Source: Gammaproteobacteria bacterium
Lineage (GTDB): Bacteria > Pseudomonadota > Gammaproteobacteria > Natronospirales > REEB76
DNA: 64,000 bases
Direction: 5' to 3'
Assembly (NCBI GenBank): GCA_035279405.1
Contig: DATEHU010000034.1
Span: 62,001 to 126,000, forward strand
A model generated the notes under the pieces. That model had not been told where the DNA came from and made no database searches. It worked only from the letters and a program-made list of their open reading frames with translations. Positions 10,782-23,235 of the stretch are shown here, piece by piece. The position numbers and the translations under genes are program-made. Each line of letters begins with the position of its first letter. Positions within the stretch are counted from its first letter, which is position 1.

Positions 10782-10813
10782 AAATTAAAAACCCGGCGGG
10801 GTTGCCGCCGGGT
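10782..10813 (-). terminator. Rho-independent terminator, minus strand
   Basis: The arms ACCCGGCGG (10791-10799) and CCGCCGGGT (10805-10813) pair perfectly around a 5-base loop. On the minus strand the hairpin is followed by TTTTTAATTT. The only candidate transcript entering it is the GGA-rich RNA proposed just upstream on that strand. Confidence 0.85.
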
Positions 10814-10950
10814 CAAAGCCTTCATGGCTGGAGGTGATTGAGTGTTCAACTCGCAAAGGGCGTGAGCGTCCGTGCTGTTCCCTGCCCCGCCCGGGTCCAT
10901 CCCACTTCCTGTCCCGCCATCCACTGGCGGTCTGGGCGGAGTCCACTTTG
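10782..10950 (-). ncRNA. Candidate CsrB/RsmZ-like regulatory RNA (5' end not defined)
   Basis: No protein gene fits this stretch. On the minus strand it holds eight GGA trinucleotides within 76 bases (10869-10944). One of them sits in the loop of a perfect hairpin, CCGCCA-GTGGA-TGGCGG, and others occur as CAGGAAG, GGGATGGACC, AGGGA and ACGGACG. The region ends in a strong terminator at 10782-10813 and lies 3' of a GacA-type palindrome (10995-11012). GGA in hairpin loops, a terminal terminator and an upstream GacA box are together the signature of RNAs that sequester CsrA/RsmA. This is inference: the start site is unknown and no clear sigma-70 box is visible. It could instead be the leader of an unrelated transcript. 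Confidence 0.6.
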
Positions 10951-10994
10951 ACACTGGATGGGTCAGGAAATAGTCGGGGGAATGCGTGACCGGA

Positions 10995-11012
10995 TGTAGG
11001 AAAATACCTACA
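10995..11012. promoter_or_regulatory. GacA/UvrY-like upstream activating palindrome
   Basis: The minus strand reads TGTAGGTATTTTCCTACA, an 18-base palindrome with 6-base arms and a 6-base spacer. It matches the layout of the GacA box (TGTAAG-N6-CTTACA) with one symmetric change per arm. It lies about 50-70 bases upstream of the GGA-rich RNA candidate on the minus strand and about 70 bases upstream of the pip start on the plus strand, so either or both could be controlled. Confidence 0.55.
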
Positions 11013-11084
11013 TGGTAGGCTGCGCTCGGGGTCCGATTACGGTAGAAAATGCCCGGTATTCCGCCATGCTCAGACGCCCACCCC

Positions 11085-12053
11085 ATGAAAAACAGCCTGC
11101 GCACGTTGTTTCCACCGCTCGAGCCTTATGCCAGGCGCCGGTTGCGCGTACAGGCGCCGCATGAAATTTACGTCGAGGAATGCGGCAATCCCGCCGGGTT
11201 GCCGGCTGTTTTTGTGCACGGCGGGCCGGGCGGGGGCTGCGTGCCCGACAACCGCCGGTTCTTTGATGCGGCGCGCTATCGCATCGTGTTATTCGACCAG
11301 CGCGGCTGCGGGCGCTCCACGCCGCACGCCGAGCTGGAACACAACACCACCCAGGCACTGATCGCGGACATGGAACTGATCCGCGCGACGCTGGGCATCG
11401 AACGCTGGCTGGTATTCGGCGGATCCTGGGGCTCGACGCTTGCGCTGGTGTATGCTGAAACCCATCCGCAACGGGTCTTGGGACTGATCCTGCGCGGGAT
11501 ATTCCTGGTTACCGCGTCGGAGTTGCGCTGGTTCTATCAGGACGGAATACAACATCTGTTCCCGGATTATTACGAGGACTTTGTCGCGCCGGTCCCGCCG
11601 GACGAGCGCAATGACTTGATGCGCGCTTATTACCGCCGGCTCACCGGCCCGGAACTGCGCGTGCGGCGCACCGCGGCGGAAGCCTGGTCGCTGTTCGAGG
11701 CCCGCTGTTCGTCACTGCTGCCCAGCAAAGCGATCGTCGAGCATTTTTCCGAACCCGAAATGGCTATGGCGATCGCACGCATCGAGTCCCATTACTTCGT
11801 GAATGACTGCTTTCTCGAACCCGATCAGATTATCCGTGATGCGCCGCGCATCCGGCACATCCCGGGCGTGATTGTGCAAGGTCGCTACGACGTAGTGTGT
11901 CCGACGGCTTCCGCCTGGCGCCTGCACAAAGCCTGGCCGGAAGCAGAGTTCCGTCTGGTTCCCGACGCTGGTCACGCGTCCAGCGAGCCGGGCATCTGTG
12001 CGGCGCTCATCGAAGCCGCGGATTCCTTCGCGCGGCGGCTTGCGACCGCATGA
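11085..12053 (+). CDS. pip: Proline iminopeptidase (alpha/beta hydrolase)
   Basis: This cytoplasmic enzyme releases N-terminal proline from peptides. The 322-residue product starts [15 protein letters not shown], typical of the family, then shows the oxyanion motif VHGGPGGGC, the family sequence FDQRGCGRS, the nucleophile elbow GGSWGS (Ser near residue 112), and the distal Asp and His in GRYDVVCP and [10 protein letters not shown]. The ATG at 11085 fits the family better than the one at 11049. Its stop overlaps the dtd start as ATGA, so the two are translationally coupled. Confidence 0.93.
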
Positions 12054-22923: not shown

Positions 22924-23235
22924 TGGGCCCGGAAGGACTCGAACCTTCGACCAAGGGATTCACTTATTCACGCCGTTTCCAGCGTGCGTGGACTATCTCT
23001 TCACCCGCCGCCAATGCGGGTAGGGTGCGGGACGCTTCAACCTGTCATTAAGGGCACTCCAGCCCTCAGGTAGTCTCTGCACCTTCCGGCGGTGTACTGC
23101 CGGCTTGGCTCAGGGTTGCCAGCGGCGTGAGCCGTGGAGGTTTCCCTGAATTCATCCCGTTTGCATCTGCGCCTTTCGACGCAGAGTCACCATTGAAGAT
23201 GAGTCCCCTGCTCTAACCAACTGAGCTACAGGCCC
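22924..23235 (-). tRNA. tRNA-Ile(CAU), interrupted by a group I intron
   Basis: The 5' exon runs from GGGCCTGTAGCTCAG to the anticodon CAT (plus bases 23199-23201), and the 3' exon resumes at AATCCCTTGGTCG (from 22960). Joined, they fold as a complete tRNA: a 7-bp acceptor stem with one G-U, a D arm, anticodon stem GGGGA/TCCCT with loop CTCATAA, variable loop TGGTC, and a T arm with TTCGAGT. The body resembles tRNA-Ile2 of proteobacteria, whose CAU is changed to lysidine, more than elongator tRNA-Met. No CCA is encoded; seven T follow the discriminator A, so the CCA enzyme is needed. Confidence 0.9.
22961..23198 (-). ncRNA. Group I self-splicing intron (IC3-like) in the tRNA anticodon loop
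   Basis: The 238-base insert lies directly after anticodon base 36 and ends in G, as omega-G requires. Core elements are visible: P2 CTGCGTC-GAAA-GGCGCAG with a GAAA tetraloop; the P4 strand TTCAGGGAAACC (23139-23150) pairing with CCCTGAGCCAAGCC (23102-23115); the P7 strands GGTGCAGAGACTA (23071-23083) and AAGAGATAGTCC (22990-23001), with GACTA facing TAGTC. An internal GUG near the 5' end can pair with exon CAU, as in the Azoarcus tRNA-Ile ribozyme. It encodes no protein. Confidence 0.9.

Follow-up and report, generated by a model that had tools for sequence, protein, structure and literature searches.

A predicted Gac/Rsm-type small RNA of Natronospirales with a conserved 3′ element shared with other gamma-proteobacterial families

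The Gac/Rsm switch has been described chiefly in enterobacteria, pseudomonads, vibrios, and legionellae. In Pseudomonas, its RNAs RsmX, RsmY, and RsmZ are 100–200 nt long, with an upstream GacA box, GGA motifs in hairpin loops, and an intrinsic terminator, and the E. coli counterpart CsrB (Rfam RF00018), a GGA sponge under UvrY, has 369 nt and 22 GGA motifs. The UvrY site of E. coli csrB, TGTAAG-N6-CTTACA, is centred at −183/−182 (PMC4682653), and RNase E cleaves CsrB past its last CsrA sites, in an unstructured segment that leads up to the terminator and that CsrA protects (PMC5027483). In the 64,000-nucleotide stretch of DNA analysed here (hereafter the window), the anatomy, conservation, and compensatory base changes of one intergenic locus, together with the partners encoded in the genome, point very probably to a single Gac/Rsm-type sRNA of about 150 nt, which would be transcribed under activation by GacA bound to its box and would bind and titrate CsrA.

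The 18-bp palindrome TGTAGGTATTTTCCTACA (TGTAGG-N6-CCTACA; 10995–11012, minus strand) is predicted to be the GacA/UvrY box. No other site in the 2.46-Mb genome matches TGTARG-N6-CYTACA exactly, and 0.27 exact matches would be expected by chance at its G+C. Two further elements of the minus strand keep a constant spacing from the box in most members, those of other families included: a conserved hexamer CCGACT (10972–10977; YYGACW in relatives), possibly the −35 element or a second contact site, and a predicted extended −10 element TGT-CAAAGT (10945–10953), which was derived from the aligned promoters and reads TGG-CAGAAT, TGG-CATGAT, or similar in relatives, the window's own version (CAAAGT) being weak. 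From these fixed offsets, the RNA start is expected near 10938–10940, and the centre of the box thus falls about 65 bp upstream (near −65). The divergent neighbour (11049–12053, plus strand; Pfam Abhydrolase_1, 3e-31) encodes an alpha/beta hydrolase, interpreted as a proline iminopeptidase (pip), the true start of which may be the ATG near 11085, and a small ORF (10723–10331, minus strand) follows about 60 bases past the terminator. Either pip or dtd adjoins the RNA gene across the order.

The predicted RNA occupies 10786–10940 of the minus strand, as delimited by its match to a covariance model of the whole RNA (R1), with a score of 163.5 bits, the window's own copy being part of the training set. 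The original prediction, made from the window sequence alone, had described on the minus strand a GacA-like palindrome of 18 bp, eight GGA in 76 bases, a GGA in the 5-base loop of a perfect hairpin, and a Rho-independent terminator, in a region that no protein gene fits, and all of these were recovered. The palindrome is present at 11012–10995, and the count of eight GGA is exact for the 76 bases from 10944 to 10869; as the first GGA (10944) abuts the predicted −10 element, seven are expected in the transcript. The 5′ hairpin CCGCCA-GUGGA-UGGCGG (10930–10914, minus) is a perfect helix of 6 bp that presents GGA in its 5-base loop as a predicted CsrA site, and the GGA cluster at 10869–10914 of the same strand (10914, 10909, 10902, 10898, 10881, and 10871) would offer more such sites. 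Further downstream, a small hairpin AGCC-AUGAA-GGCU (10817–10829, minus) is flanked on one side by a conserved 3′ element, described below, and on the other by the intrinsic terminator ACCCGGCGG-CAACC-CCGCCGGGT-TTTT with its T tract (10813–10787, minus). Non-triplet indels between relatives and the position of the stretch between two genes argue against a coding function.

Taken alone, the window sequence, with its modest GGA enrichment, is suggestive. The seven GGA in the 99 bases ahead of the 3′ element gave P = 0.006 against mononucleotide shuffles and P = 0.055 against dinucleotide shuffles, and a single GGA-loop hairpin gave P = 0.21. The whole stretch folds with only somewhat elevated stability (z = −1.7), and single-sequence predictions offer competing folds for part of its GC-rich middle. 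It is the conservation among relatives, as judged by sequence comparison, that places the feature far beyond chance and decides the case.

The close relatives of the window genome are MAGs titled Natronospirales or Gammaproteobacteria. By DNA search, the locus was recovered from each of the 11 genomes of the genus and from one other genus of the family, and in these 12 family loci the box, YYGACW, the −10 element, the GGA hairpin, the 3′ element, and the terminator are kept together. In 12 of 12 loci, the GacA box carries at most one mismatch and stands at the same distance, with 169 to 175 bases from the box to the 3′ element, and five to seven GGA precede this element in every family member. 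RNAalifold analysis of the 12-sequence alignment (A2) gave a consensus of five helices, in which 96.9% of cells were paired, compared with at most 58% when the partners were slid, and 19 cells (7 pairs) were changed on both sides, compared with 6.7 in shuffles. The 5′ hairpin helix is paired in all 12 sequences, where C-G pairs are replaced by U-A and G-U, and its loop holds GGA in every one of them (GUGGA, AUGGA, AGGAA, GGGAA, and UGGAU). Moreover, the small hairpin underwent a two-sided A-U to G-C change in 4 of 12 sequences, and the terminator helix is 99% paired among the 12 relatives. The GacA box is kept in relatives, and so are the GGA loops, whose conservation the original prediction had proposed to check.

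Related RNAs also follow an exact box in three other genera (two further families of the order), and their GGA hairpins are mostly clear (GCGACAGGAUGUCGC, ACGAACAGGAUGUUCGU, GUGCCAGGACGGCAC, and GGUGACAGGAUCGUCACC); the first three are textbook CsrA hairpins by sequence, and the RNAs lie next to pip or dtd as in the window. The RNA is present in family f4 as well, with a diverged box that is the palindrome GTCAG-N6-CTGAC in locus L014 and retains only the right half in L013. Separately, in two loci of family f65 (L084 and L087), a GGA-rich, terminator-closed RNA lies beside dtd with no recognisable GacA box, and this may be the same gene controlled by a different regulator.

The most conserved part of the RNA, above the GGA region, is one that the original prediction had not seen. 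Shortly ahead of the terminator, in the arrangement UCAAUCACCU(C)yAGCCA / ACUCAAUCACCUCCAGCCAUGAAGGC, lies the nearly invariant, single-stranded 3′ element ACUCAAUCACCUCC (10830–10843, minus). Within it, CAATCACC is invariant in all 13 sequences of alignment A4 and present in 17 of the 18 sequences of alignment A3, the remaining one having CAAACACC. The core across the order is UCAAUCACC, and outside the genus the element occurs without its CCUCC part (CAAUCACCUUUCGC, CAAUCACCCACG, and CAAUCACCAAGG). When named genomes were searched for the 3′ pattern, the matches were Natronospirales or Gammaproteobacteria MAGs, except for L060, which was rejected as a chance match inside an apparent coding sequence. 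Two-mismatch matches elsewhere in the class were mostly taken as chance, and the one inspected (L056) looks coding. The pattern was not found in viral contigs. As an observation apart from the RNA, two short ORFs in tandem (G000:C26:345100-345320; L151 and L153), 48 and 51 aa long, have nearly the same ribosome-binding site and one hydrophobic stretch each, and look by eye like filamentous-phage coat proteins.

For a wider survey, 369 genomes of the class were searched with R1 and with a model of the 3′ end only (R2), trained on 13 sequences, three of which came from outside the order (L091, L092, and L095). In other families, both models retrieved RNAs that are rich in GGA and preceded by exact GacA boxes, and in the R2 matches these boxes lay 160–290 bases upstream. 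Exact boxes outside the order include TGTAGGAATATTCCTACA (L091), TGTAGGATAATTCCTACA (L095), TGTAGGATTTATCCTACA (L093/L100), TGTAAGAATCATCCTACA (L106), TGTAAGAAAATCCCTACA (L122), TGTAGGACATATCCTACA (L111), and TGTAGGAACATTCCTACA (L125). Among the 22 R2 matches outside both the order and the training set, three of which belong to genera represented in that set, seven had an exact box and three a one-mismatch box within 300 bases upstream, as compared with about 0.00003 to 0.00007 exact boxes expected by chance per match. In L111, L112, and L125, the box is present and the 3′ element has diverged. About ten low-scoring R2 matches with neither a box nor clear GGA enrichment look false or doubtful; L113, L115, L116, L119, L124, and L126, having no box and few GGA, were taken as false. 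From the TGTAGG/CCTACA arms, the original prediction had suggested that the RNA might be a lineage-specific class; the arms are not limited to this lineage, for they also precede related RNAs in several other families. By these comparisons, the 3′ element marks a widespread family of predicted Gac/Rsm RNAs that is missing from Rfam. In two genera of family f125 (L110 and L118), a related 3′ end TGTACTCCTCCACCCCTGTGAGG with a terminator was seen with no GacA box, perhaps belonging to another small RNA.

The proteins expected to act with such an RNA are encoded in the window's genome. The original prediction had made its reading depend on the presence of gacA and csrA, and both were found: CsrA (2.6e-26) and a GacA/UvrY orthologue above the NCBIfam cut-off, with uvrC immediately downstream. 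A BarA/GacS-like kinase of 911 aa with a BarA-type sCache_4 domain is also encoded, although the domain match is weak (24.5 bits; the cut-off is 22.1), and Hfq is encoded too. With the box, the conserved GGA loops, the terminator, and these partners, the sequence evidence supports the reading as a Gac/Rsm-type RNA. Presumably, the BarA/GacS-like kinase activates GacA, which in its phosphorylated form would bind the palindrome, some 65 bp ahead of the start, and activate transcription of the sRNA, which would end at the intrinsic terminator. CsrA dimers would then be bound by the GGA site of the 5′ hairpin loop and by about six others, and the withdrawal of CsrA from mRNAs would relieve CsrA-dependent repression. 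The single-stranded 3′ element beside the terminator may govern the stability of the RNA.

This last role is a guess by analogy: the element occupies the position of the RNase E segment in CsrB, so that a turnover site is the leading candidate. Rather tentatively, the RNA could be bifunctional, uniting the CsrA sponge with a separately conserved UCAAUCACC module, so far undescribed and common to Gac/Rsm RNAs of many gamma-proteobacterial families, and the module may in that case be a dedicated protein site, a regulated cleavage site, or a base-pairing seed. It is very unlikely that the locus encodes instead a GacA-controlled, Hfq-dependent base-pairing sRNA, in which UCAAUCACCUCC would pair as an antisense seed with ribosome-binding sites, with GGA motifs that are incidental or secondary. 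Such a seed would suit an element that is single-stranded, better conserved than the GGA part, and placed ahead of the terminator as in Hfq-bound RNAs, in a genome with Hfq; however, the complementary 11-mer sites GAGGTGATTGA in ten related genomes lie mostly inside coding regions, and no translation start recurs among them across several genomes (one exact 11-mer, ten genomes), which makes an antisense seed less likely. The resemblance to an anti-Shine-Dalgarno sequence is seen in the window's genus, whereas the CCUCC part is lost outside it, and the GGA hairpins are both conserved and covarying. A turnover or protein site is the more likely role of the element. Pairing in cis with the dtd start was also set aside, because such complementarity, observed for one genus (AGGTGATTG at the start of dtd, L072), is absent from the window genome. 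Even less credible than a base-pairing sRNA is a reading with no separate RNA, in which the stretch would be the 5′ leader or an attenuator for the gene downstream (10723–10331, minus), or else part of the promoter of the divergent pip: the small ORF does begin about 60 bases beyond the terminator and the box does lie upstream of pip as well, but the RNA is closed by a strong terminator with a T tract, and in other families, where dtd takes the place of pip and different genes lie downstream, the box is still found together with the RNA and its terminator.

The predicted CsrA-titrating RNA belongs to no family in Rfam. With Rfam 15, the covariance search that the original prediction had proposed for the CsrB and Rsm families gave no match in the window, either at gathering or at permissive thresholds (up to E = 10, for the CsrB model RF00018 and the RsmY/RsmZ models alike), and none in 21 related loci up to E = 1, whereas E. 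coli csrB, as a positive control, scored 380 bits in the same search. In a text search for CAAUCACC over literature that is mostly free of subscription, the matches listed were unrelated. Elsewhere in the window, Rfam identified a group I intron (RF00028, 73 bits, E = 1e-16; 22969–23211, minus) in a tRNA at about 23232–22924. It interrupts the anticodon loop, and the joined exons read CTCATAA with anticodon CAU (tRNA-Ile/Met-like); ARAGORN, with introns allowed, called the same intron-bearing tRNA Gln.

If correct, these predictions extend the Gac/Rsm switch to an uncultured lineage and to several other families with sponge RNAs outside Rfam. With the 3′ element, such RNAs could be searched for by sequence, whereas their fast-changing GGA regions make them difficult to detect by other means. 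The element also hints at a step that these RNAs share, perhaps regulated decay.

Collectively, the locus is, as read from sequence, a regulator of a known kind in a sequence family absent from Rfam, with an extra conserved module. A weak likeness to anti-hemB (RF02837) in the last hairpin and terminator (20.8 bits, E = 0.019 in a 601-base search) is far under the family cut-off of 49.5 bits and confined to the terminator region. The palindrome has the geometry of the E. coli UvrY/GacA site, although the box of the window RNA (about −65) is nearer the promoter than that of E. coli csrB. With about 150 nt and about seven GGA, the RNA is smaller than CsrB, which it resembles as a GGA sponge under a UvrY-type regulator and in the unstructured segment that separates its last GGA sites from the terminator. 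In layout, it is most like RsmX, RsmY, and RsmZ, and GacS/GacA and CsrA, the proteins of the Pseudomonas cascade, have counterparts in the window's genome; it differs from the Pseudomonas RNAs in matching neither the RsmY nor the RsmZ model, and its box near −65 and the UCAAUCACC ahead of its terminator may be further differences.
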